Assembly (NCBI GenBank): GCA_003676145.1
Contig: NAUB01000022.1
Coordinates: forward strand, 1-64,000
Origin: a gamma proteobacterium symbiont of Stewartia floridana
Lineage (GTDB): Bacteria > Pseudomonadota > Gammaproteobacteria > Chromatiales > Chromatiaceae
Reading direction: 5' to 3'
Length of the DNA: 64,000 bases
Shown here in pieces: positions 49,617-63,968 of this stretch; position 1 is the stretch's first letter, and each line of letters opens with the position of its first letter. Both the position numbers and the translations under genes were made by a program. The notes beneath the pieces are model-generated. The model was not told where the DNA came from, ran no database searches, and saw only the letters and a program-made list of their open reading frames with translations.

Positions 49617-50912
49617 TCAAATGAGATTCAAACGATGGTTCTTTCGGATCACCTCTGACAGCTTCTTTGGCACCTCAGCCTTTGCTGCATAACTGGGCCA
49701 ATCAGCCACCGTGTCGGTGATCTGCTGGATGATCCTTTTCGCCTCTGGCCTGAATCGCTCTGCTGGCTGTAACAGATCAGCCAGAGTGAAATCATCCCGC
49801 TTGCCGTTGAGTGTCAACTGATGACTGTTGACCCATTTTGAGTCCGCTCTGTAGCTGTAGGCGAGATCGAAAGCCGGCGCCAGAGTCCAGCTGCCATCCT
49901 GCTGCATCAGAAAGCCAAAGTTCTTGGTGTGGTCATCCTGATTGCGCGCCACGATGTTGAAAACCATCCGCCGGTAGAGCTCCAGTGCTGTCGGGCGATT
50001 GAAACGTAAACTGCGCAATACACCGAAAAGGGCTTCATAACTGTAGTGCCCCGGCTGCTTGTAATCCGCATGATCCATTGCGCAAAGAGATTGGTAGTGG
50101 AGCTTTCGATCGCCCTGCCGATCAAATCGCCTGGTGAGAAAATGCGCCCGCTCACCCTCCTGCAGCAACTCACACTCAGAGATATCGATACCGACCGCCC
50201 TGGCCATCAGATAGTAGGCATATTCCATCCGGCCATACCCTTGAGGATCGCCGAATGTCTGCTGGGTGCGGTTTGACTCAACAATCCCATCGAACTTCAG
50301 CAGATAGTGCTCGTATCCATCTTCAAGCTCCACCTGACCACTGCGAATTCTACTTCGAGCCTTGTCGACCGCGACAACCGCTTTTGCCCGGGCCCCACCG
50401 GCTGAAGTGCCGACCTGGAACAGGGTCTCGAGACCATTCGTGTCGGCAGCCAGCTGCAGATTGGCACGACCATCGATCACCTTCTGCGCCATCTCTGCCA
50501 GACTCTCGAGATTGAGCTCTGCTGCTTTCCTGGGTCGATCACCCGGTTGCGGAAAATACTCCAGCGCCCCCATGCCTCGCTGTCCCATGTACTGCAGTCG
50601 TTCAACCGGCGTAAAGGAGCCAGGATCCCTTCCCTGCCGCGCCAGCCAGGCATCGATCACGGCGTTACCGAAATCATCCGGTAGCGAATCGGCAAAGGCC
50701 GCCGGTAAACCTTTATAGGTCGCCCGATTCAACTCGGGAAACTGAAATTTTCGATCACTGAGCGGCAGATGCAGTGGGGATATCTGCAGCCCACTCTCTC
50801 GCCACGCTTTGGTGTATTCAAATGTACCCAGCCCTTTCTGCTCATCGAATGCCAGCGCACCAACGAGCTTGCCCCATAGCTTCACTTCAGCGATCTGGAT
50901 CTTCTCTACCAT
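49617..50912 (-). CDS. hipA: HipA-type toxin kinase
   Basis: Toxin of a type II toxin-antitoxin pair, a Ser/Thr kinase whose E. coli homolog phosphorylates glutamyl-tRNA synthetase and causes dormancy. It has 431 residues. The N-terminal HipA_N subdomain (VGALAFDEQKGLGTFEYTKA) and the C-terminal kinase core (HFLTRRFDRQGDRKLHYQSL) are visible. The catalytic loop is VARNQDDHTKNFGFLM, and the DFG-like DLAYSY follows. These residues look intact, so it should be active. It overlaps the hipB stop by seven bases. Confidence 0.92.
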   Translation of the reverse strand: MVEKIQIAEVKLWGKLVGALAFDEQKGLGTFEYTKAWRESGLQISPLHLPLSDRKFQFPELNRATYKGLPAAFADSLPDDFGNAVIDAWLARQGRDPGSFTPVERLQYMGQRGMGALEYFPQPGDRPRKAAELNLESLAEMAQKVIDGRANLQLAADTNGLETLFQVGTSAGGARAKAVVAVDKARSRIRSGQVELEDGYEHYLLKFDGIVESNRTQQTFGDPQGYGRMEYAYYLMARAVGIDISECELLQEGERAHFLTRRFDRQGDRKLHYQSLCAMDHADYKQPGHYSYEALFGVLRSLRFNRPTALELYRRMVFNIVARNQDDHTKNFGFLMQQDGSWTLAPAFDLAYSYRADSKWVNSHQLTLNGKRDDFTLADLLQPAERFRPEAKRIIQQITDTVADWPSYAAKAEVPKKLSEVIRKNHRLNLI

Positions 50913-51259
50913 CCCAGATCATCCTTCTCATCATCCATCCTCTCGCGCTCTTCTTTTGCCGGTGCCGCCCGTTTCCGTTTATGTCCCTTGAGTTTCATCA
51001 GCATCAGTGGACTTAACGGGGTCTCCGGCACAAACGCCTCCACCAGTTCCAGCTTACCCAGGATCCGCAAAATCCCGATCATGGTCTCAAACTTGCCATG
51101 CCCCTGGATCGTCGAGCGGTAGGTTTTTGCTGTGATACCCAACTGATCCGCAATCGTCTTCTGGGTAATATTGGCTTCAAGGCGTAACTGTTCGATACGC
51201 CCACCCACTTCCGATGCAAGCGCCTGGTCACTCATCCTGTAAAGATTTCTAGAGGTCAT
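50906..51259 (-). CDS. hipB: HipB-type antitoxin, HTH regulator
   Basis: A 117-residue antitoxin and autorepressor. A Cro/C1-type helix-turn-helix occupies about residues 17-70 (IEQLRLEANITQKTIADQLG then ITAKTYRSTIQGHGKFETMI). The basic C-terminal tail KGHKRKRAAPAKEERERMD is longer than in E. coli HipB. A good ribosome site (AAGGAAATAA) supports the start. It is the first gene, with hipA translationally coupled behind it. Three related AT-rich sites upstream could be its operators. Confidence 0.88.
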   Translation of the reverse strand: MTSRNLYRMSDQALASEVGGRIEQLRLEANITQKTIADQLGITAKTYRSTIQGHGKFETMIGILRILGKLELVEAFVPETPLSPLMLMKLKGHKRKRAAPAKEERERMDDEKDDLGW

Positions 51260-53713: not shown

Positions 53714-54020
53714 GGCGCACTCCCCTTATGGTGATCTGATAACCCTAATGGAAGTATAGACCTACCTATCATGTGGTTTTTAAGTCTCTGTCAGCAGACT
53801 GTTTGCCCCCGCTACCCCCTCTAAAACGAGGCACAAGCTGACCTAACCACTGCCAACGACCGTTCTCCATCATGAGCAGCGAACAGCCTATAAACACCGA
53901 TTTACAGCGCAACAGCGGCGTTCAATCCGGGTTTTTCAGTGAAAAACCGGGACCCGCCAATTTGGCATATAAATTTTCTATAAATAACAGCCAGTTATCA
54001 ACCACCCCATGAATTGACAC

Positions 54021-54036
54021 GACAATTTGTCATGTT
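54021..54036. promoter_or_regulatory. Putative upstream activator site 1
   Basis: GACAATTTGTCATGTT, an inverted repeat GACA-ATT-TGTC plus ATGTT. It is identical over 16 bases to the site at 62862, and lies 92 bases upstream of the -24 GG of the operon promoter. Confidence 0.6.
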
Positions 54037-54111
54037 CTTGGTTTGTATTGGCTTTCTGCCGTTTAATTTTTTTCCATAGAAGACAAAGGGATATCTCCAC
54101 CATTCCATACC

Positions 54112-54127
54112 TGGCATAGGGATTGCT
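54112..54127 (+). promoter_or_regulatory. Sigma-54 promoter of the NrfC/NrfD cytochrome operon
   Basis: TGGCATAGGGATTGCT against the consensus TGGCACG-N4-TTGCW. GG and GC are separated by exactly 10 bases, with mismatches only at two -24 positions. The predicted start is about 54138, some 150 bases before the first gene. The neighbouring NtrC-type activator makes this the expected promoter class. Confidence 0.75.
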
Positions 54128-54288
54128 GTTTTTACATGAATCAGTTCGCACGTTTGCAATAAAAACCGACATAACAGCGTGTAGTACCAATCGGGCTTGC
54201 TTACTGCCAACAGTGAATCGATGCCGGCTGGCATCGTGAGCTGTAATGAAACCAATTGATAACTGACACAGGCCATGGGGTGACCTAG

Positions 54289-54624
54289 ATGATGAAACAG
54301 TGGCTCATTCAAATAGAGCAGTGGTTGTTCGGTGAAGATAAAAAACAGCAGAAGCCTGAACTGAGTAGTTCCGATGAGCCCAATCCCGTCCGCAGGCGAC
54401 TCTTCAGGCAGGTTGCCATTGGTGCCGCCGGTGTCACCGGCACTGCAGGCTTGGCAAAGAGTGTTGTCGATGCCGTCCCGGAGCCCGACCTGAAGAAGAA
54501 ATACCGCCAGGATGCCTTGCAAGGAGAGACAGAACTCAGTGAGAGAGAATATGTGGTCATGACCAACCAGGAGAAGGAGGCAATGCTGCAATCGTTCATT
54601 GATAACTACAACAATAAATCCTGA
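54289..54624 (+). CDS. Small twin-arginine protein (formate dehydrogenase region Tat-target type)
   Basis: A 111-residue protein whose middle holds an internal twin-arginine signal, NPVRRRLFRQVAIGAAG (about residues 32-48), preceded by about 30 polar residues. The pattern resembles the small proteins known as formate dehydrogenase region Tat-target proteins, which accompany respiratory iron-sulfur/molybdenum genes. The tail has LSEREYVVMTNQEKEAML. Its function may be as a small subunit or assembly factor. It is the first gene of the operon. The ribosome site is GGGGTGACCTAG. Confidence 0.75.
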   Translation: MMKQWLIQIEQWLFGEDKKQQKPELSSSDEPNPVRRRLFRQVAIGAAGVTGTAGLAKSVVDAVPEPDLKKKYRQDALQGETELSEREYVVMTNQEKEAMLQSFIDNYNNKS

Positions 54625-54677
54625 ACAGCATGAGATGGTTCACGCCTATTTGATAGCCACTCGATCAGAGGACAACC

Positions 54678-55706
54678 ATGCCGAAACAAGATTCGAGCAA
54701 AACAAAAGATAACAAACTCACCAGCCGCCGGGATTTCCTGCGTAGTGCGGGAAATTACACGGTGGCCTCACTCTCCGGCGCAGCGATGCTGCTCTCCGAT
54801 CCAAAACCGGCAAAAGCCAATGTGACCTGGGAGGAGCATTTCCAAAAAAATTATCGACTGATGACAGACGAGGAGAAGCAGCAGGCCATCGAACGCCTCG
54901 AAACCCGCTATACCGAAGAGTACGGTAAGCCGGTAACGGTCGATGGCAGCCCATCCATGGAGGGGGTTCTGTTTGGATATGCGCTGAATATTCAGAAGTG
55001 TATTGGTTGTCGTCGATGCGTAAAGGCCTGTGTGGCTGAGAACAATCAGTCCCGTGGTGATGAGCAGCAGATCGAGTGGATCCGGGTACTCCGCATGGAG
55101 AAGGGAAAGTTCTCAGAAGCGGACAGGGACCAACATGGTTACCCGGAATCCTTTGGCGTTCAGGTGGGCGGGAATGCCTACAAACCTGCCGGTGTGGTGC
55201 TGGAAGGCCAACACTACTACGAACCGGATCAGGTTCCGGAAAAAGATGCCTTCTATTTTCCCATGCAGTGCATGCAGTGCGAGAAGCCACCATGCGTCAA
55301 GGTCTGCCCGGTACGTACAACCTACCGTGACCCGGATGGTATCGTTGTCATCGACTACAACTGGTGCATTGGTTGCCGCATGTGTATCGGTGCCTGCCCC
55401 TACTGGGCAAGACGCTTCAACTGGGGTGAACCCAATCTACCCAAGGAGGAGATGAATCCTGTCACTCACTATCTTGGAAATCGACCACGTATGAAAGGGG
55501 TTGTGGAGAAGTGCTCCTTCTGCGTTCAACGCACCCGCAAGGGCCGCTGGACGGCCTGTGTCGAGGTCTGTCCGGTTGGTGCTCGCAAATTCGGCAATCT
55601 GCTCGATCCGAACAGTGAAATCCGCAAGGTTCTGGCCAAGAAGAAGGTCTTCCGACTGCGAGCAGACCTCAACACCTATCCAAAGTTCTTCTACTACATG
55701 GATTAA
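54678..55706 (+). CDS. Tat-exported 4 x [4Fe-4S] ferredoxin subunit (NrfC/DsrO type)
   Basis: A 342-residue periplasmic electron-transfer subunit. The twin-arginine signal is SRRDFLRSAG (Arg17-Arg18). Sixteen cysteines form four clusters: 108/111/114/118, 198/201/206/210, 230/233/236/240 and 279/282/294/298, in the usual NrfC/DsrO/HmcB arrangement. It should dock to the following NrfD-type membrane protein and pass electrons between the quinol pool and periplasmic cytochromes. No catalytic molybdopterin subunit is present. The start follows GAGGACAACC. It is 15 bases from the next gene. Confidence 0.9.
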   Translation: MPKQDSSKTKDNKLTSRRDFLRSAGNYTVASLSGAAMLLSDPKPAKANVTWEEHFQKNYRLMTDEEKQQAIERLETRYTEEYGKPVTVDGSPSMEGVLFGYALNIQKCIGCRRCVKACVAENNQSRGDEQQIEWIRVLRMEKGKFSEADRDQHGYPESFGVQVGGNAYKPAGVVLEGQHYYEPDQVPEKDAFYFPMQCMQCEKPPCVKVCPVRTTYRDPDGIVVIDYNWCIGCRMCIGACPYWARRFNWGEPNLPKEEMNPVTHYLGNRPRMKGVVEKCSFCVQRTRKGRWTACVEVCPVGARKFGNLLDPNSEIRKVLAKKKVFRLRADLNTYPKFFYYMD

Positions 55707-55720
55707 TCGGAGATCCCCTA

Positions 55721-56974
55721 ATGCGTTTTCTTCATTTTGTGGTCGATTACCTCAAGGCAGGATTTACCGGCGGCATCCTATTCTGGCTCTGGATGCTGTT
55801 TCTGCTGTTTTTCATCATGCTCTGGGGTTATGGCGAGTATATACAGATCGTCAATGGCATGATTGTCACCAATCTTAACGATCAAGTCACTTGGGGTTTC
55901 TATCTGGCCAATTTTGTCTTCATGGTGGGTGTGGCGGCCGCTGCAGTGACCGTGGTTTTTCCCGCCTATGTCTATAAGCACAAAGAGCTTCATCGGGTCG
56001 TGGTGCTGGGTGAAATGATCGCCATTGCGGCAGTCGTCATGTGTCTGCTGTTCGTGATTGCACACATGGGCAGACCGGACCGATTGTGGCATATCCTTCC
56101 GGTCATCGGTATTTTCAACTTTCCCCATGCCATGCTGACCTGGGATGTGATTGTACTCAATGGCTACCTGCTACTGAATATCATCGGCGGTTACTACTAC
56201 CTCTATACAAAATACAGTGGTGGTGAGATCAACAAGTCCTTCTATCTGCCGGTTGTCTATATTGCGATTGTCTGGGCATTGAGTATCCACACGGTTACTG
56301 CCTTCCTGATCAACACCATGCCGGCGCGTCCCATGTGGTTCCATTCGATGATGCCGATCAAGTTCATCACCACCGCTTTTGCTGCCGGTCCGTCACTCAT
56401 CATTGTCGTGTTTTTACTGGTACGCCGTTTTACCCCCATGAAAATCGCAGATGAAGTCTTTCATCTACTCTCTCAGATCGTGGTCTGGTGTCTCGGTATT
56501 GCGCTGTTTCTGACCATGTCGGAAATCGTCACTGAACTCTACCCCTCGACCGAACACTCCCTGGGCCTGCAATATCTGATGTTCGGACATAATGGCCTGG
56601 ATCGTCTGGTGCCCTTCTTCTGGACGGCACTCTCGCTGATGGTGGGGTCCTTCATACTGCTTCTGATCCCCAGCATAAGGAAAAACCTGAAGCTGCTACC
56701 GTTCATCTGCATTGCCGCATTTGTCGGTATCTGGATCGAAAAAGGTATGGGATTGATGCTGCCCGGCGTGATTCCAACCCCGATTGGTGAGTTTGCTGAA
56801 TATACCCCAAGCCAGATTGAGTTGATGGTGGTGGGTGGTATCTGGGCAATTGGTTTCTTCCTGCTCACCTTCATGCTGAAAGGTGCGGTGGCCGTACTGC
56901 AGGGAGAGGTTCGTTACAGATCCAAAACCAGCGAGCCAGCAGTTTCGAAGCAGCAGGCCGAAGCGGCAACCTGA
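55721..56974 (+). CDS. NrfD-type quinol-interacting membrane protein
   Basis: A 417-residue integral membrane protein of the NrfD/PsrC/HmeB family with about 10 hydrophobic segments. ITFWGFYLANFVFMVGVAAA-like and LHRVVVLGEMIAIAAVVMCL helices are visible, then HMGRPDRLWHILPVIGIFN, a block with the conserved Arg-Pro-Asp loop. Family members exchange electrons with menaquinol or ubiquinol through a ferredoxin partner, here the upstream gene. The last 20 residues are polar and cytoplasmic or periplasmic. With only NrfC and NrfD subunits it lacks a catalytic head. Confidence 0.9.
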   Translation: MRFLHFVVDYLKAGFTGGILFWLWMLFLLFFIMLWGYGEYIQIVNGMIVTNLNDQVTWGFYLANFVFMVGVAAAAVTVVFPAYVYKHKELHRVVVLGEMIAIAAVVMCLLFVIAHMGRPDRLWHILPVIGIFNFPHAMLTWDVIVLNGYLLLNIIGGYYYLYTKYSGGEINKSFYLPVVYIAIVWALSIHTVTAFLINTMPARPMWFHSMMPIKFITTAFAAGPSLIIVVFLLVRRFTPMKIADEVFHLLSQIVVWCLGIALFLTMSEIVTELYPSTEHSLGLQYLMFGHNGLDRLVPFFWTALSLMVGSFILLLIPSIRKNLKLLPFICIAAFVGIWIEKGMGLMLPGVIPTPIGEFAEYTPSQIELMVVGGIWAIGFFLLTFMLKGAVAVLQGEVRYRSKTSEPAVSKQQAEAAT

Positions 56975-57020
56975 GTGAATGAAGCTTGGTATGAACGGGC
57001 AAACTCGATTGGAGAAAAAT

Positions 57021-57833
57021 ATGACATGCTATCGATTCCCTCAAACACTCTTTGGTTTGTGCCTGCTGCTGTTTCTTATCACTACCCCACTGCATGGCAC
57101 AGAAAACCAGACTGACCAGGAGTGTTTCGAGAGCCGTGACGGCATGTCACAGGTCAAGGTAGAGGAAATCAGCCCAGGGCTGGTTAATGTCAAGTGCTCA
57201 TCAACAACTGGAGGAGTGCTCTGGTGGGGTGACCCGTTCGCTGGCACCATCCCCATGGGAGACATGGATATCGAGGCGGACTACTCCACTGAAGAGGCGG
57301 TGGTGAAACCCCGTGAGCCAGAACTCGATAAGAACAAAATGTTGACGATCTGCAGTATGGCCTGTCACGACGGTAATTATGTGCCGATTCCCCATAGCAA
57401 AAGTCCGCGTCGACTCAAGATGCACCTGGACACGGTACCAGACGCCTTGAATTTAAAGCATGGCAAAGGAAACATCTGGTGCCTGGATTGTCACCATCTG
57501 GTGGAACGCACCAAACTGATCGACAACTTCGGATACTCGATCAGTTTCAACCAGCCTCAGAAACTCTGCGGAAAATGTCATGGGCAGGTCTATCGGTCCT
57601 GGCGGGATGGTCTGCATGGCAAACGGATCGGCATGTGGGACAAGGGAGGCAAAAAACGTTGGTGGGTCTGTACTGAATGCCATAACCCACACGACGTTGA
57701 ACAGGAGGAGAGAAACTCAGGCTTTGCTCAGTTACGCCCTGAACCGGCACCAAACCTGCCCAAGGGAATGGACAATGCGAACCATGAACGAATGCATCAT
57801 GGCCCACACTCTGGTGGAAATGCGCATGAGTGA
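57021..57833 (+). CDS. Periplasmic tetraheme cytochrome c
   Basis: A 270-residue secreted cytochrome. From the ATG at 57021 (GGAGAAAAAT upstream) it has a signal peptide to about residue 26. Four heme-binding motifs are visible. The first is C-x3-C-H (CSMACH, 111-116), a less common spacing. The others are CLDCH (154-158), CGKCH (183-187) and CTECH (217-221). Extra His residues are available as distal ligands, as in cytochrome c3/NrfH-like folds. The C terminus is His-rich (HERMHHGPHSGGNAH). Presumed electron acceptor for the NrfC/NrfD pair. Confidence 0.85.
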   Translation: MTCYRFPQTLFGLCLLLFLITTPLHGTENQTDQECFESRDGMSQVKVEEISPGLVNVKCSSTTGGVLWWGDPFAGTIPMGDMDIEADYSTEEAVVKPREPELDKNKMLTICSMACHDGNYVPIPHSKSPRRLKMHLDTVPDALNLKHGKGNIWCLDCHHLVERTKLIDNFGYSISFNQPQKLCGKCHGQVYRSWRDGLHGKRIGMWDKGGKKRWWVCTECHNPHDVEQEERNSGFAQLRPEPAPNLPKGMDNANHERMHHGPHSGGNAHE

Positions 57834-57950
57834 TTCTGCAGGCTGAACCAATGCAATCATTTAACACTTGATAAATCCGGTGATGTCAAAGAAAGCCAGG
57901 CTGTTTAACCCATATTTGGAACCTATCCAGTTTATACGCGGAAAATTGTC

Positions 57951-58277
57951 ATGATAAGTCAAACCAGAATGATCAGCGCAACTCTATTTGTCGCCCTATT
58001 GATGATATCGGTCTCTGTACTGGCTATGGATCCTGCGACGCTCTATCACGAACGAACCTGCATTGCCTGCCACGGTGCTGAAGGCAAGCAGCCTGTGATG
58101 GAGGAATATCCAAAACTCGCCGGTCAAGCTGAGGCTTATCTATTGACTCAAATGAAGGATATCAAGAACGGTTACAGGACAAACGCACATTCCGTTGCCA
58201 TGCAAAATGTTATGCATCTTGTGAGCGACGAAGAGATTGCCGTATTGGCAAAATGGCTTTCGTCTCTACCTGAATGA
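57951..58277 (+). CDS. Small class I cytochrome c, copy 1
   Basis: A 108-residue monoheme cytochrome of the c553/c4-half type. It has a signal peptide to about residue 25 (ending VLA), the heme motif CIACH at 37-41, the YPKLAGQAEAYLLTQ block, and a Met ligand in the region of AMQNVMHLVSDEEIAVLAKW. It would shuttle electrons in the periplasm. It is paralogous to the small cytochrome at 59230. Confidence 0.87.
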   Translation: MISQTRMISATLFVALLMISVSVLAMDPATLYHERTCIACHGAEGKQPVMEEYPKLAGQAEAYLLTQMKDIKNGYRTNAHSVAMQNVMHLVSDEEIAVLAKWLSSLPE

Positions 58278-58318
58278 GTTATCCATCCTACTACTGTCGC
58301 TGGGTTGAACCATCTGCT

Positions 58319-58777
58319 TCAAGCAGACCAGGCATCATCAACCAGATCAGCGACCTGTTGATAATAGGTATCCCGATCCAATCCAAGGATAGTGGCACCG
58401 AAGATTTCTGCATCGTTTGCTGTCGCGAGATCGCCGTAATTGACCAGCACCAACTGATAGAGAATGAGCTTGGGAAGATCGTCGTGTCGGTTTTCAAAAT
58501 GGTTATGGATCAAGATGGTATAGCCGTCATCGGGATTTTCGGAGACCGGCTCCGTCCTGGCAAACATACCGGGTTCGATACCCTCGGAGACAAACCTGAG
58601 GGTCACCGGATAGCGGACGGATTTTCTGTCTTCGAGCATCTGAAGCACAGTCTGGTAGTCAATTACTGGCGCATAGCGGTTGCGTATATCTTCCGCTTTT
58701 TCACGAGCGTGCAGCGAAACCGCGCTGTGGACAACCTTTCCCGCTCGTTTTTTGACCTTGGGCTTATCATCTGTCAT
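58319..58777 (-). CDS. Conserved-looking soluble protein of unknown function
   Basis: I do not recognise this 152-residue protein, which is on the strand opposite to its neighbours. From the ATG at 58777 (GTGAG upstream) it is cytosolic, with a basic start (DDKPKVKKRAGKVVHSAVSL) and a mixed alpha/beta body rich in Asp and Glu (YPVTLRFVSEGIEPGMFART, HNHFENRHDDLPKLILYQLV). The opposite frame has no sensible features. It is divergent from the gene at 58816, with 38 bases between. Its role with the cytochromes is unclear. Confidence 0.6.
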   Translation of the reverse strand: MTDDKPKVKKRAGKVVHSAVSLHAREKAEDIRNRYAPVIDYQTVLQMLEDRKSVRYPVTLRFVSEGIEPGMFARTEPVSENPDDGYTILIHNHFENRHDDLPKLILYQLVLVNYGDLATANDAEIFGATILGLDRDTYYQQVADLVDDAWSA

Positions 58778-58815
58778 GACAATCTCACAAAATTTTCTAC
58801 AAATAAGGATTACGC

Positions 58816-59187
58816 ATGCCTGAGTACACACTGAAGTTTAGCGAAGATCCTATAGAGGAATCCAGAGTTCGCACCATGGATGAGATAAATCAGTTCATCC
58901 ATATGATGGATGGCAAATCCTTGGCCGTGGTTACCCTCGATGATAGACAAAGTGATCTATGGGACACAGAGGGTGATGTAGACTATCAGGATCAGTACGG
59001 AGAGCAGATCATCAGCCAGATATCAGATAATGACACTGAAACATTGCTCATCAGAAACTGTCATGGACTTCCCCTGGCATTGGGTGTGAAAAATCATACT
59101 CATGGCTGGCAAGGCATTGGCATTGAAAAACGACTTCGCTTCGAAGTCGCCAGGATGTTTCAAAACGACGAGACAGAGTTCGATTGA
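58816..59187 (+). CDS. Acidic protein of unknown function
   Basis: A 123-residue cytosolic protein with no signal peptide and no family recognised. It is acidic, with EDPIEESRVRTMDEINQFIH at the start, a VVTLDDRQSDLWDTEGDVDY stretch, and a C-terminal LRFEVARMFQNDETEF. It lies between the two small cytochrome genes, in the same direction, and its start follows a clear ribosome region (AAGGATTACGC). Confidence 0.55.
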   Translation: MPEYTLKFSEDPIEESRVRTMDEINQFIHMMDGKSLAVVTLDDRQSDLWDTEGDVDYQDQYGEQIISQISDNDTETLLIRNCHGLPLALGVKNHTHGWQGIGIEKRLRFEVARMFQNDETEFD

Positions 59188-59229
59188 GCATAAGACTTAC
59201 ACAGATTTTTGTTAGCCTCAGAGGTTGAT

Positions 59230-59562
59230 ATGAAAAAATCAAAACACATTGGTAGATCTGTATTCCTTCTGATCGCCACAATTGCAATTTCCAGCGCTAA
59301 TGCGGAAAATTCAGATAGCAATCTTGCCACTCTCTACCTGGCAAAAGCCTGTGCAGGTTGCCATGGGGTCGATGGCAGAACACCAACAACACCCTATTAC
59401 CCAATCATTGCAGGGCAAAACGAGGCTTACATTTACAATCAGTTGAGAGATTTCAAGGACGGCAGCCGATCAAACAGTATGTCAACTGTGATGACAGGCA
59501 TTATGAGCGCAGTCAGTGAGCAGGAGATACGTTTCATTTCTGCTTGGCTTTCCAAGCAGTAG
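59230..59562 (+). CDS. Small class I cytochrome c, copy 2
   Basis: A 110-residue monoheme cytochrome with a signal peptide to about residue 25 (ending ANA). The heme motif is CAGCH at 41-45, the YPIIAGQNEAYIYNQLRDFK block mirrors copy 1, and Met candidates lie in MSTVMTGIMSAVSEQEIRFI. From the ATG at 59230, AGAGGTTGAT is upstream; a TTG seven codons earlier is disfavoured. It ends 10 bases from the convergent regulator gene. Confidence 0.87.
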   Translation: MKKSKHIGRSVFLLIATIAISSANAENSDSNLATLYLAKACAGCHGVDGRTPTTPYYPIIAGQNEAYIYNQLRDFKDGSRSNSMSTVMTGIMSAVSEQEIRFISAWLSKQ

Positions 59563-59571
59563 CCGTTTCGG

Positions 59572-60939
59572 TCAGCTTGCTTTATAACTATTCTCATCCA
59601 GTTCGTAGCGCTTGATCATACGGTAGATACTTCGCTCACTGATACCCATAACTTCGGCCACTTTGCCCCGACGCCCTGAGTATTTCTTTAGCTGATAGGA
59701 TAAGTAGTGCGCCTCCAACTCCTCCATGGATGGATCGTGATCAAAACTCAGGGTGACAACCCCTTCACTCTTGCCAAGCACACGGCTAAACGAAAAATGC
59801 TCAGGCTTGATGACCTGTCGGTCTCCGGAGAGAATGATCGCCCTTTCGATTACATTCTTCAGTTCTCTGATGTTTCCTGGCCAGTCATAGGAGACCAGCG
59901 AACGAACCGCGGATGATGAAAGGTTCTTGCTTACACGTGTCGAGAAAGTGTGATTCTTTACAAAGTGCGCCGCCAATTCGGGTATGTCGTCACGTCTGTC
60001 CCGCAATGGCGGTATGACGATATTGAAAGCATTGAGTCTGAAAAACAGATCGGAACGAAACTTCCCTTCTACCGACATGGTCTCCAAATCCCGATTCGTA
60101 GCAGCGACAATTCTGACATTTGCTGTCAGATCCTTGGTGCTTCCCAGCCTCCTGTATTGTCCAGTTTCGAGTACACGCAGAAGTTTCGCTTGACCGCTAC
60201 TGTTGATCTCTCCAATTTCATCGAGAAACAGAGTGCCCCCCTCTGCCCCTTCGATCAATCCTTTTTTCTGCTTGTCTGCACCGGTAAATGCGCCTTTTTC
60301 ATGTCCGAATAATTCAGATTCAAACAGGTTTTCCTGAAGTGTACAGCAGTCAACAGCAACATAGTTGTGCTTCTTTCTATGACTGTGGGCATGGATTGCC
60401 CGTGCCACCAGTTCCTTTCCCGAACCACTCTCGCCCTGTATCAGTACAGTAATATCGTTTGGCGCCACAGCACCGATCATCTGTTTCAGTTCAGCCATTG
60501 CAGTGCTGTTCCCCACCAGGGAGGAGTTTCGCTGGATACTCTGCTCCAACTGCCTTTTGCAAAACATGTGGTCTCTGCGCAAGGCAGCATTATCGAGTGC
60601 CCGCTCAACGGTTATTGTCAATGTATCGAGACTGACTGGCTTTAATATGTAATCCACTGCGCCGGCCTTTATCGCACTTACAGCGTCGCGCACCGAACCA
60701 AATGCTGTCAAAACAATGACAGGATAGTTGACAGATATCTTTTCAATATACTCAAGGCTATTGGCATCAGGCAGACGAGCATCAGTTAATATCAATGCAG
60801 GCTCATACTTTTCCAGATAGTCCATTACACTGTGCCAACGACTCAGCCCTTCAACCTCATAGTCCAAATTCGACAGATGCTGGATCATTAAGGTTCTGAG
60901 TGTATCGTCATCCTCTACTACAACGAGTTTGGCTTTCAT
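59572..60939 (-). CDS. NtrC-family sigma-54-dependent response regulator
   Basis: A 455-residue activator with three domains. The receiver carries the phospho-acceptor Asp53 ([11 protein letters not shown]) and Thr78 in VIVLTAFGS. The AAA+ core has the Walker A GESGSGKE near 169, the sigma-54-contacting GAFTGA at 216-221 and the Walker [10 protein letters not shown] Fis-type HTH is at the C terminus ([20 protein letters not shown]). It overlaps the sensor gene by four bases (ATGA). The intact GAFTGA loop says it activates sigma-54 promoters, of which two lie close by. Confidence 0.93.
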
Positions 60940-62792
60940 CTATCCCCCTCCAGTTCATGCTCTGCATTCGGCAGTATGACAGTAAACACACTGCCAACAG
61001 AAACTTCACTGGTCACTTTTATGGTTCCACCATATTTTTCTATTATCGCCAAGCTGATCGAAAGACCTAAACCCGTACCTTTGACATCGTCGGCACGACG
61101 TGAAAAAAACGGATCAAAAATATAGGGTAGATCTTTAGGCCGGATCCCAGCACCGGTATCAGAGAAAACCATCTGGACCTTATCCTCAACGATCGAGCAG
61201 GTTACCGTTAAAATGCCACCACCAGGCATGGCATGAAAGGCATTCTGCGAAAGATTGAGGGCTACCATCCTGATTTCACTGTCAGAAGCCAGGACCCGGA
61301 GGCCCTCATTTTTATAATTCTCTTCAATTGAGATATTCGCCTCATCAGCCTGCCATCTGATCAGTGCAAGTGTATCGTTGATAGCGGCAGCAACATCGAC
61401 AAGTTCCATGTATTCCTGGGGCAAAGCACCGAGCTTCAATAATTTACCGGTGATCTCAATACAGTTGTTGATCTGATCATCAATCAGTTCAAAGTTTTGC
61501 TTGATCCCATCAGTGAAGTTGTTGCTGACAACAATTTCGTTCTTGGTCGCATCCATTGCCAATTTCAGCGAAGCCAGAGGATTATGAATCTCATGAGCTA
61601 CCCCGGTAGCCAAACGCCCTAATTCAGAGAGTTTCTGTTCCTGGGAATATTTAACCGCTTTTTCAAGATCCCGAATCGATTCAACAATCAGAGTCTTCTC
61701 CTTCCCGCCTTGCTGAATCGTCATCGGCGCCGCAATAATCTCCACCTCAAAGGTAGTAAGATCCGAACGGTGGTGTTGATGCACCACCTTGATCGGCTTT
61801 TTACACCGAGACACTTCATGAATCGGGCAGTTGATCAAGGTCGGTGGACAGGGTTTGTTGGCGTTGTGGGTTACACCGTAACAGGTTGCGCCAACCTCCA
61901 GCTTGTCCTCAAGTCGGTGCTGTTCACAATAGGCTTTATTGACAAGCACCACCTTGAAGTCTTCATCAATAATCCTGATACCATCGGGGATGGCATCAAC
62001 CAGTGCCTGTAGGAACCCCCGCTGCTCTTCCAATTCAAGCAGCTTCTCCTGTAATCGCTCCGCCATCAGATCAAAGGTGGAACCGAGTCGGCTGAGTTCA
62101 TCTGCCCCCTGCATCTCAACACGGGTTTGTAAATTCCCATCAGTCAACGCCTGACTCGCGTTTTTGAGCTGTTTGACTGGTCTGAGAATATGGCTGTGTA
62201 TGAACCACCAGCCACCTGCCAGATTAAGTATCACGATCAGGGATCCGGCACTCATCAGCATCAGCGTGGTGGTACTTACCTTGTGTCTGAGCGAACTGGC
62301 GTCGTAGTCGACATAGAGTATGCCGTTGATCGGATTCTGCTCTGCCGGACCATGACACTCTTTGCAGGCTGGCTTGTTGTGCACCGGATTGATGCTGCGC
62401 AGCAACTCCTGCTGTGACTCACTCTCTATGAACCGGGTTGTTTGAAGACTCTCCAGATAGGGATTTTCCAGTTTTTTACCGAAATCCCCATCACGACTGC
62501 TGAAACGGATTTCACCTGCCGGGTTAGTGATAAAAACCCGCACGATATCCTTCTGCTCCCCGAGCTTTTGCACCATATCACTCAATCCGGGCAGGTCGCG
62601 CTTGAGCATGGCGTTCTCCAGGGAGACCTGCAGCAACTTGTTGACCTGATTGGCGGTCTCCGCTCGCGCCCCTTCCAGTTCCGATTGGTAGATCGGTATA
62701 TAGAGTAAAAGAAATACCAGGGTGCTTAAGACAAGACCTGATGTGGTACCGAGGATGAATTTTCTATTCAGGCTTTCGTTTATCCAGTTCAT
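60936..62792 (-). CDS. Sensor histidine kinase with heme c motif and Cys-rich PAS
   Basis: A 618-residue sensor (ATG 62792; a TTG four codons earlier is possible). Membrane helix 1 is near 12-33. A periplasmic domain of about 140 residues ends in CKECH (143-147), a covalent heme c motif, followed by GILYVDYDASS. Membrane helix 2 lies near 175-200. Then come HAMP, a PAS domain with Cys304, Cys315, Cys322 and Cys330 (CYGVTHNANKPCPPTLIN and CPIHEVSRC), the His kinase box GVAHEIHNPLASLKL (His400) and a complete HATPase (GTGLGLSIS). It probably senses redox state or a gas. Confidence 0.92.
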   Translation of the reverse strand: MNWINESLNRKFILGTTSGLVLSTLVFLLLYIPIYQSELEGARAETANQVNKLLQVSLENAMLKRDLPGLSDMVQKLGEQKDIVRVFITNPAGEIRFSSRDGDFGKKLENPYLESLQTTRFIESESQQELLRSINPVHNKPACKECHGPAEQNPINGILYVDYDASSLRHKVSTTTLMLMSAGSLIVILNLAGGWWFIHSHILRPVKQLKNASQALTDGNLQTRVEMQGADELSRLGSTFDLMAERLQEKLLELEEQRGFLQALVDAIPDGIRIIDEDFKVVLVNKAYCEQHRLEDKLEVGATCYGVTHNANKPCPPTLINCPIHEVSRCKKPIKVVHQHHRSDLTTFEVEIIAAPMTIQQGGKEKTLIVESIRDLEKAVKYSQEQKLSELGRLATGVAHEIHNPLASLKLAMDATKNEIVVSNNFTDGIKQNFELIDDQINNCIEITGKLLKLGALPQEYMELVDVAAAINDTLALIRWQADEANISIEENYKNEGLRVLASDSEIRMVALNLSQNAFHAMPGGGILTVTCSIVEDKVQMVFSDTGAGIRPKDLPYIFDPFFSRRADDVKGTGLGLSISLAIIEKYGGTIKVTSEVSVGSVFTVILPNAEHELEGDR

Positions 62793-62861
62793 CACTTGTA
62801 ACAACTCGGTTGCTCAGGATCCGATGTTTTGATTGTAATATTAAAAAAATCCCGTTTTTCT

Positions 62862-62877
62862 GACAATTTGTCATGTT
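62862..62877. promoter_or_regulatory. Putative upstream activator site 2
   Basis: GACAATTTGTCATGTT, the same 16 bases as at 54021, now in the region between the sensor kinase gene and the divergent secreted-protein gene. It lies 70 bases upstream of the -24 GG at 62932. Confidence 0.6.
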
Positions 62878-62930
62878 TCCAGTGAGAATCCAACGATTCT
62901 TTTCTCCTTTTTGCCTCTGATTCAGCCCTT

Positions 62931-62946
62931 TGGCTTGTGTTTTGCT
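62931..62946 (+). promoter_or_regulatory. Sigma-54 promoter of the secreted-protein gene
   Basis: TGGCTTGTGTTTTGCT, with GG and GC exactly 10 bases apart and a strong TTGCT -12 box. The predicted start near 62957 leaves about 40 bases of leader with a GGAGGAG ribosome site. Confidence 0.7.
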
Positions 62947-62995
62947 CATAAATTGGAAATCTGAACGCCATACCCTATCTGGAGGAGAAGCGAGA

Positions 62996-63775
62996 ATGAG
63001 AAAAATAAATACAATTTCCGGTTTCCACATCACAATGCTGCTGCTGTGGGTCTTTTTATGGTTACCAATTATGGGCTTAGCGGAACCTGCCAATAGCCTC
63101 GGTGAATCGCTACGCGAATCTCTCCAACAGCAGGGATGGCAACAGTACACTGCTGAGGATGGTAGTGTTATCTATCGACAACCGAAGAAAGATGCGGCGA
63201 CTGACATTCCGTCAGGAAACAGGGAAACAGGCGAGATACGCAAATTTGGAGAAGCACTGCAGAGCCATGGCTGGCAGGTTGAATGGGATGCAGATAACAC
63301 ATTGATCTTAAAACCAGCAACGCCCCCTACCACCTCTGGGAATAACCTGAATCCATCTCAACAGCCCCCCGCAGCTCCTACGCAGACTATGAAAGACGAT
63401 CTACCAAGTGACATGTCAGGTTTTAAATACTGGCATATCGAGCGGGATCAGGGGGGAGCACTACTTTTTCGCCCTGTGGAACTCTCTGCGTTAGAACAGC
63501 AAACCAAAGCAGCGAGAACCATTCAATCGACAGAGTGCCGCATTGATCAATTCCAACTGACCAACGGATCGCTGCCGGTTGATCAGTGGTCAGAAGCACA
63601 GGATGTTGCAAAGCAGTGGCTCAAGACAGAGGGGGTGGCCGGGCTTCAGGTGGGCCGTATCCGTAAGATAAATCGCATCTATCTGGTCAGTATTGTCGGA
63701 GAGTCTGCGCCCTATCCATTGAAACACCAGCTGGTAATTCGTGCTTCCGACGGCTCGGTCATGCTAATTGAGTAA
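62996..63775 (+). CDS. Secreted protein of unknown function in the sigma-54 regulon
   Basis: A 259-residue protein I do not recognise. From the ATG at 62996 (GGAGGAG upstream) residues 1-29 are a signal peptide (ending GLA). Two tandem motifs follow: GESLRESLQQQGWQQY...DGSVIYRQP near 36-63 and GEALQSHGWQVEWDADNTL near 82-100. A third related stretch, YWHIERDQGGALLFRP, is near 140. A Pro/Gln linker lies between. The C terminus (about 190-259) has GVAGLQVGRIRKINRIYLVS and ends VIRASDGSVMLIE, like a PepSY-type fold. It has no Cys pair or heme motif. Preceded by its own sigma-54 promoter. Confidence 0.7.
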   Translation: MRKINTISGFHITMLLLWVFLWLPIMGLAEPANSLGESLRESLQQQGWQQYTAEDGSVIYRQPKKDAATDIPSGNRETGEIRKFGEALQSHGWQVEWDADNTLILKPATPPTTSGNNLNPSQQPPAAPTQTMKDDLPSDMSGFKYWHIERDQGGALLFRPVELSALEQQTKAARTIQSTECRIDQFQLTNGSLPVDQWSEAQDVAKQWLKTEGVAGLQVGRIRKINRIYLVSIVGESAPYPLKHQLVIRASDGSVMLIE

Positions 63776-63968
63776 CGATCGAGATAAAAAAACCTAAACA
63801 CAATCCCTCTCTCGATAGGGACTGTTCTGTACGAAACCGTTCTGCCTTGCTGAGGCTCTGTTGCTACTCAGCAGAGCAGAATGGATTTGCTGCTGCTGTC
63901 ATTGGAAAACCGATTCACCACGGTATAAAGGGATTACCCGTGTACCAGAGCTTGATTGACCCTATTTA

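Follow-up and report, generated by a model that had tools for sequence, protein, structure and literature searches.

The stretch of DNA considered here, which we call the window, comprises positions 1-64000 of contig C13 (338,989 bases) in the 36-contig, 4.55 Mb genome of a gammaproteobacterial symbiont of Stewartia floridana; contig coordinates past its right-hand edge continue its numbering. Close to that edge lies an operon for a ferredoxin, an NrfD-type membrane protein and a tetraheme cytochrome (the NrfD module), together with two monoheme cytochromes and a two-component switch made up of an NtrC-type response regulator and a heme-bearing sensor kinase (Table 1). These products had been recognised in a first-pass annotation made from the letters alone, and each of those identifications held when the ten proteins of 54289-63775 were scanned against Pfam and NCBIfam; passed over there were the small gene with a twin-arginine translocation (Tat) signal at 54289-54624 and the conserved open reading frames (ORFs) at 58319-58831 (minus strand) and 58816-59187 (plus strand).

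The first-pass annotation had further described the regulon as self-contained and without a catalytic subunit. Neither statement survives inspection of the ORFs of contig 63500-83400, seven of which were put through the family scans: a dimethyl sulfoxide (DMSO) reductase-like molybdenum catalytic subunit, here named MoA, lies beyond the window edge, 8.6 kb from the tetraheme gene, and the pentaheme cytochrome, molybdoenzyme, ferredoxin and TorD-like genes found there carry the same operator as the module. The apparent lack of a catalytic subunit comes from where the window happens to end. What lies inside is probably one part of a larger sigma-54 regulon, namely its quinol-oxidising arm together with the two-component switch, while MoA, the catalytic core, starts just outside; what can be read directly from sequence in this interpretation are the module genes, the operators and sigma-54 boxes ahead of both arms, the co-occurrence of kinase and MoA, and a combined cluster in Azonexus.

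Table 1. Features of the NrfD module, the two-component switch and the molybdoenzyme locus in contig order; counts out of 24 refer to the genomes (loci) with an NrfD module.
Feature	Coordinates	Strand	Remarks
Putative activator operator of the NrfD-module operon, CGACAATTTGTCA	54020-54032		one mismatch to TGACAnnnTGTCA
Sigma-54 promoter-like box, TGGCATAGGGATTGC / TGGCATAGGGATTGCT	54112-54127	+	ahead of the NrfD-module operon
Small Tat-signal protein, 111 amino acids	54289-54624	+	first gene of the operon; weak match to TIGR02811 (formate_TAT)
Tat-exported ferredoxin, DsrO-like	54678-55706	+	four 4-Cys motifs, exactly 16 Cys; Fer4_11 match
NrfD-type integral membrane protein, DsrP-like	55721-56974	+	Pfam NrfD, 7.9e-32
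Tetraheme cytochrome c	56979-57833	+	three CX2CH and one CX3CH; later ATG at 57021 possible
Monoheme cytochrome c (cytA)	57951-58277	+	Pfam Cytochrom_C, 5.5e-10; close to the module in 21/24 genomes
Conserved ORF adjoining cytA	58319-58831	-	kept in 21/24 genomes
Conserved ORF	58816-59187	+	kept in 20/24 genomes; one miss is a contig end
Second monoheme cytochrome c (cytB)	59209-59562	+	Pfam Cytochrom_C, 4.1e-08
NtrC-type sigma-54 response regulator	59572-60939	-	Sigma54_activat, 1.2e-67; Response_reg, 1.3e-19
Sensor histidine kinase	60936-62804	-	periplasmic c-heme site CKECHG; HAMP, PAS, HisKA, HATPase
Putative operator, TGACAATTTGTCA	62861-62873		exact; between kinase and next gene; site at same spot in relatives
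Sigma-54 promoter-like box, TGGCTTGTGTTTTGC / TGGCTTGTGTTTTGCT	62931-62946	+	follows the operator by about 70 bp, as in most relatives
Protein with hydrophobic N-terminus, molybdoenzyme side	62998-63775	+	accompanies MoA in relatives
94-amino-acid protein	contig 64401-64685		ahead of the methionine-rich gene
Methionine-rich repeat protein	contig 64796-65539
Pentaheme cytochrome	contig 65657-66448		starts 1.7 kb past the window edge
MoA, Tat-signal molybdoenzyme, 854 amino acids	contig 66474-69038		starts 2.5 kb past the window edge
DmsB-like ferredoxin (MoB)	contig 69056-69721
TorD-like chaperone	contig 69721-70494
Second ferredoxin	contig 70478-71569
Thioredoxin/NHL protein	contig 71671-73311

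The putative operator, TGACAnnnTGTCA with at most one mismatch, was sought in the 420 bp before the NrfD-module operon and in the 450 bp before the molybdoenzyme operon; in this genome such sites are at 54020, 62861 and contig 64070/64226. Of the 24 module loci, 18 have it ahead of the operon, as compared with 5.5% for randomly drawn 420-bp pieces (one of the 18 sites, at -57 in L054, may be due to chance). It precedes the molybdoenzyme operon in 18 of 19 genomes, the miss being G034, with a sigma-54 box in 16 of the 19; among those with the operator are three genomes outside the class (G066, G156, G227) and a Rhodobacter plasmid, there without the box. G004, with 1.1 Mb between the module on one side and the switch and MoA on the other, retains the sites, as do G006, G009, G019 and G020, where module and switch are on different contigs. 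Taken bare, the sigma-54 pattern turns up in the window about as often as chance predicts (3 times, against 3.13), and the exact 13-mer operator pattern occurs ten times in the genome as against three times for a reversed control, one occurrence being beside the kinase, one before a second methionine-rich gene and the other eight untied to the regulon. The sigma-54 boxes of this genome (54112, 62931 and contig 64329) are credible because the arrangement of operator and box is conserved: in 16 genomes of the genus, G004 with its kinase elsewhere on the chromosome among them, a like box follows the operator after 92-103 bp. Both arms are preceded by a shared operator and a -24/-12 box, the pattern to be expected of one sigma-54 regulon; by this evidence a single regulon spanning both arms is credible, and so is the sigma-54 control put forward in the first-pass annotation.

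The distribution of the genes points in the same direction. Among 56 genomes (our own and 55 others), tetraheme cytochrome and MoA are both present in 18, the tetraheme cytochrome alone in one (G032), MoA alone in ten and neither in 27, giving a Fisher p of 1.8e-6, uncorrected for kinship; MoA is found at no less than 82% identity in 18 of the 19 tetraheme genomes and at no less than 78% in 28 of the 56. As to a catalytic gene beside the module in relatives, for which the first-pass annotation had advised looking, Azonexus locus L055 carries a single row of pentaheme, MoA, MoB, TorD, ferredoxin, NrfD, tetraheme, kinase and regulator genes, and four of the 18 genomes with both arms (our own, G002, G015 and G021) have them 8-9 kb apart on one contig; elsewhere the arms lie on different contigs or, in the single-contig genome G004, at 286 kb (module) and 1,393 kb (MoA), with the kinase at 1,400 kb. 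A catalytic subunit adjoining the module in most relatives, which the first-pass annotation had named as its refutation, is thus borne out only partly.

The co-occurrence that the first-pass annotation had suggested searching for across the gene set is seen between tetraheme cytochrome and MoA, but does not extend to the pairing of sensor and module: across genomes the kinase tracks MoA and not the NrfD module. Its sensor half occurs in 27 of the 56 genomes, each of them among the 28 with MoA, and in none of the MoA-less ones, including G032, which has the tetraheme cytochrome; among MoA genomes only G026, at 69% completeness, lacks it, and the kinase-bearing MoA genomes include the ten that lack the tetraheme module, minus one. 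Kinase and MoA lie within about 12 kb on the same contig in 14 of the 27 and on different contigs otherwise, and in relatives the regulator adjoins both of them. The Rhodobacter plasmid, from R. xanthinilyticus LPB0142, has kinase and regulator genes after MoA and no NrfD module at that locus. The kinase adjoins the NrfD module in our own genome and in G002, G015, G021, G010, G012 and G016.

A working scheme can be outlined on this basis. The heme-bearing kinase would see a suitable redox or gas signal and the activator would bind TGACAnnnTGTCA, switching on both arms; NrfD would oxidise quinol, and the electrons would reach the tetraheme cytochrome by way of the four-cluster ferredoxin. The pentaheme cytochrome would receive them next, either straight from the tetraheme protein or with a small cytochrome in between, and would hand them through the DmsB-like ferredoxin to the molybdenum site, where an oxidised compound in the periplasm would be reduced. 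The NrfD module would occupy the place that the DmsC anchor has beside E. coli DmsAB. The electron path, its direction and the substrate are inferences, and candidate substrates are DMSO, another S-oxide, or the methionine sulfoxide of the neighbouring methionine-rich protein.

Several observations weigh against this picture. No operator with up to one mismatch was found upstream of the module in G017, G023, G032, L052, Azonexus and Gallionella (6 of 24). MoA occurs without the tetraheme module in ten of the 56 genomes, and in a second sample of 398 genomes spread evenly over the phylum (MoA at E <=1e-150, tetraheme at E <=1e-20) MoA was found in five, a tetraheme match in six, three of them strong (our own, G216, G298), and both arms in our own genome only; the ten module-less genomes and the phylum sample together mean that neither arm needs the other everywhere. 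Four genomes with the module have no MoA orthologue. A monoheme cytochrome sits inside the MoA operon in five module-less MoA genomes and in six whose module is elsewhere, so that MoA may be fed another way; this extra gene, which separates the chaperone gene from that of the second ferredoxin, is present at 11 of the 20 molybdoenzyme loci examined (L109-L119) and absent from nine (five of the window's sub-clade, which has the NrfD module beside the switch, G023, G029, G066 and the Rhodobacter plasmid), a distribution that may reflect shared ancestry alone. In G001 and G003 the kinase (53% identical) adjoins neither arm and the neighbours of the MoA operon differ, and G011 is likely similar, its contig ending there. 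Within this family and in Azonexus the two arms are strongly tied, but the tie is not universal.

It is against this background that other explanations have to be weighed. The first-pass annotation had proposed a stand-alone quinol:cytochrome c module. In such an oxidoreductase NrfD protein, ferredoxin and tetraheme cytochrome would form a minimal alternative complex III delivering electrons through the small cytochromes to oxidases, the shared switch being incidental. The trio is found in Gallionella, G216, G298 and G032, none of which has an MoA orthologue anywhere in the genome (best matches 29-33% identical and partial), and thus can constitute a quinol:multiheme-cytochrome unit by itself. 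The two adjoining monoheme cytochromes, the many relatives with the module far from MoA or on other contigs, and the fact that ActC of alternative complex III (ActABCDEF) is, by sequence, the best solved-structure match of the NrfD protein all speak for such an oxidoreductase, which like alternative complex III would combine multiheme and monoheme cytochromes. Nevertheless, neither a fused ActB-type subunit nor a second NrfD (ActF) is present among the ten scanned proteins, the operator and sigma-54 boxes are held in common with the molybdoenzyme even where the genes are unlinked, a difference from alternative complex III, and in Azonexus module and molybdoenzyme form one cluster. In the present genome we consider a stand-alone role unlikely.

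We regard the reverse direction as decidedly unlikely. In it, electrons would enter the tetraheme cytochrome from the molybdoenzyme or some other donor and be passed to quinone by the NrfD module in the manner of Qrc, which, according to passages of PMC13059093 and PMC8076601, takes electrons from periplasmic cytochrome c3 and delivers them to menaquinone. Among NCBIfam models the ferredoxin matches QrcC second best, if far under the cut-off (161.2 of 400 bits), and the genome has a dsr cluster, its genes named by eye, like those of sulfur oxidisers, but the best family models for MoA are those of DMSO, selenate and trimethylamine N-oxide reductases. Finally, a second Dsr-type complex for sulfur oxidation, with the ferredoxin as DsrO, the NrfD protein as DsrP and the tetraheme cytochrome replacing DsrJ, is highly improbable and was rejected: the NrfD protein does exceed the NCBIfam DsrP cut-off (354.3 bits versus 350) and the ferredoxin comes close to that of DsrO (189 versus 200), yet no DsrM- or DsrK-like protein is found among the ten scanned neighbours, a cluster with DsrK-, DsrL-, DsrJ-, DsrO- and DsrP-like genes (by eye) stands on contig C36, and the regulation is tied to a molybdoenzyme. 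Automatic annotation would name the window's NrfD protein DsrP even though no DsrMK accompanies it, while the DsrP-like gene on C36 scores just 57.4 with the same model.

Set beside known systems, the module is a variant on a known theme, a DsrOP-like ferredoxin/NrfD pair plus a distinct tetraheme cytochrome. As in DsrMKJOP of sulfate reducers and sulfur oxidisers, a single operon encodes a periplasmic four-cluster ferredoxin, an NrfD-type subunit and a small multiheme c cytochrome; the module differs from that complex in having four heme sites rather than three, sigma-54 control and a molybdoenzyme in the regulon. The Cbc4 complex of Geobacter (CbcS-CbcT-CbcU) is a quinol-oxidising trio of cytochrome, ferredoxin and NrfD-like membrane subunit. 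The first heme site of the tetraheme cytochrome is the CX3CH (CSMACH), a motif that 24 of 26 distinct sequences share, the remaining two having CX2CH there. In 19 of the 56 genomes, our own included, there are relatives that match most of its length at 63-100% identity. The best match of this protein to a solved structure reaches only E 0.067, and its predicted structure (mean predicted local distance difference test score, pLDDT, 34.7) was not used. The 14 named loci with a related tetraheme cytochrome belong mostly to Candidatus Thiodiazotropha or to unclassified gammaproteobacterial symbionts and metagenome-assembled genomes, the remainder being one Sedimenticola, one Azonexus and one Gallionella genome; the present bacterium is accordingly taken to be a Thiodiazotropha, a sulfur oxidiser living in symbiosis with lucinid clams. 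Compared with plasmids, the three-gene stretch gave a single, partial match (5%), in a haloarchaeal plasmid.

The small Tat-signal protein scores 18.1 bits with TIGR02811, whose cut-off is 48.45; a tblastn match to it lies ahead of the ferredoxin gene in 21 of the 24 genomes, our own among them, and Gallionella has a similar Tat ORF in the same place. By eye, methylcitrate synthase-, PrpD- and propionyl-CoA synthetase-like genes lie upstream of the Gallionella module (L056 260-4831). Neither of the two conserved ORFs has a Pfam match at E 0.01, and the protein of 58319-58831 has no NCBIfam match at that level either. Upstream of the island a helix-turn-helix-like gene (50906-51259, minus strand) and a HipA-like gene (49617-50912, minus strand) look by eye like a HipBA-type toxin-antitoxin pair.

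The kinase has one CxxCH site, present in all 19 distinct kinases examined. Its sensor half, predicted as a long helix followed by a mixed strand domain (mean pLDDT 74.3), is compatible in this model with a PAS-like sensor; a weak match to Mcp40H-20_sensor (E 0.0026) falls below the cut-off. For the gene at 62998-63775, ATG 62998 is taken as the start because TTG 62930 overlaps the promoter box, and a terminator-like site follows at 63804-63821, such sites being no commoner than in shuffled sequence.

On the molybdoenzyme side, MoA, MoB and the chaperone resemble E. coli DmsABC/YnfEFGH in combining a Tat-signal molybdoenzyme, a DmsB-like ferredoxin and a TorD/DmsD-type chaperone. The nearest family of MoA is DmsA/YnfE (TIGR02166, DMSO/selenate reductase subunit A), at 624.5 bits against a cut-off of 777.7 (624.4-632.6 bits for the best matches in five genomes of the genus), and it shares 34.9% identity with an E. 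coli DmsA. Unlike the E. coli enzymes, it is accompanied by a pentaheme cytochrome and a separate NrfD module, and no DmsC-type anchor was seen among the ORFs of contig 63500-83400 or in the family scans of seven of them. In the N-terminal cluster motif, which is C-x3-C-x3-C in E. coli DmsA and YnfF, a His replaces the third Cys, leaving MoA without the four Cys; C-x3-C-x3-H was found by pattern in 30 of 35 sequences, and the remaining five have longer N-termini, outside the stretch searched, with three of the five showing the same motif.

A second MoA copy in our own genome (C2:200997, 77% identical) has its own pentaheme, ferredoxin and methionine-rich genes; no NrfD-module, kinase or TorD match was found in the fetched piece around it. 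In this second set (C2:197343-204268; L108 6344-13269) an exact operator precedes the methionine-rich gene, with a CRP/FNR-like ORF (by eye) between them. Chlorate or perchlorate respiration was considered and appears unlikely: chlorite dismutase, which passages of PMC9751292 place beside enzymes of the DMSO-reductase family, is absent (PF06778) from all 22 genomes of the genus and present in two of the 56, G024 and G030, the latter an MoA genome of the family that has PF06778 on another contig than MoA.

A further companion of MoA is a secreted methionine-rich protein. At 27 of 28 MoA loci (27 genomes, our own counted twice for its two copies) the pentaheme gene is preceded, at a distance of no more than 3.5 kb, by an ORF in which the repeat M-[SGND]-[GQ]-M occurs 9 to 105 times; the exception, G034, has only a short MGGMSGW-like remnant, possibly a repeat collapsed in assembly (by eye). 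Methionine makes up 20-30% of the ORFs listed, 26% and 29% in our own genome, and (MSGMGG)n proteins are also found in Azonexus and on the Rhodobacter plasmid. The 94-amino-acid protein (YPVAG...PGM.GRYDLR.WH) is kept near the methionine-rich gene in Thiodiazotropha, Azonexus and the Rhodobacter plasmid. A short motif, F-K/R-I/V-T-P-x-G-x-I (or W...DGS.I), was noticed by eye in the methionine-rich proteins and in the diheme cytochrome beside the second copy (L108 13307-14146), and in looser form in the 62998-63775 protein. Because the MSGMGG stretches of our own genome lack K and R, tryptic proteomics would tend to miss this companion.

Two precedents bear on its possible role: passages of PMC7402097 report that DorA, the DMSO reductase of Rhodobacter sphaeroides, reduces protein-bound methionine sulfoxide, and passages of PMC4623255 describe a methionine-rich peptide and YedYZ as a methionine-cycling system in perchlorate reducers. 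As in that MrpX/YedYZ system, the methionine-rich protein here is encoded with a periplasmic molybdenum reductase, although the molybdoenzyme is of another family, the repeats are MSGMGG, control is by sigma-54 instead of SigF/NrsF, and multiheme cytochromes and the NrfD module take part. By analogy, a methionine-sulfoxide cycle would be a sensible reading, and we put forward tentatively, as a doubtful proposition still, a respiratory version of it, in which (MSGMGG)n would be a sacrificial or storage polymer of the periplasm whose sulfoxides are reduced by the molybdoenzyme through the quinol-NrfD-tetraheme-pentaheme chain; copper binding or a structural role are the alternatives. Were the cycle real, the polymer would be a rechargeable anti-oxidant shield or an electron acceptor stored for times of oxygen lack. 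Among the matches listed in a search of the open-access PMC literature, no description was found of the NrfD module with this molybdoenzyme or its methionine-rich partner, and the whole regulon, with that partner and an unusual molybdoenzyme, is of greater interest than the module alone.

These findings also bear on an enzyme of the lucinid clam symbionts that has been puzzling. Passages of PMC6872982 place a DMSO-reductase-like gene among the most expressed of Ca. Thiodiazotropha endoloripes, passages of PMC12172469 include dmsB and a DMSO reductase chaperone in the top-100 transcripts of two lucinid symbiont clades in the upwelling season, and a 2024 study (PMC11237559, in part) mentions dmsAB-annotated genes near a divergent soxY in lucinid symbionts. 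The DmsA model exceeds 600 bits at one locus each in G016, G009, G004 and G015 and at two in our own genome, the next best match scoring 223.9 bits; since the only loci above 600 bits are those found here, the regulon, by elimination, would hold the expressed "DMSO reductase", and its MoA is likely to be that highly expressed enzyme. An enzyme long unexplained would thereby become testable, with a switch and an operator assigned to it, a likely partner for quinol oxidation and a methionine-rich companion.

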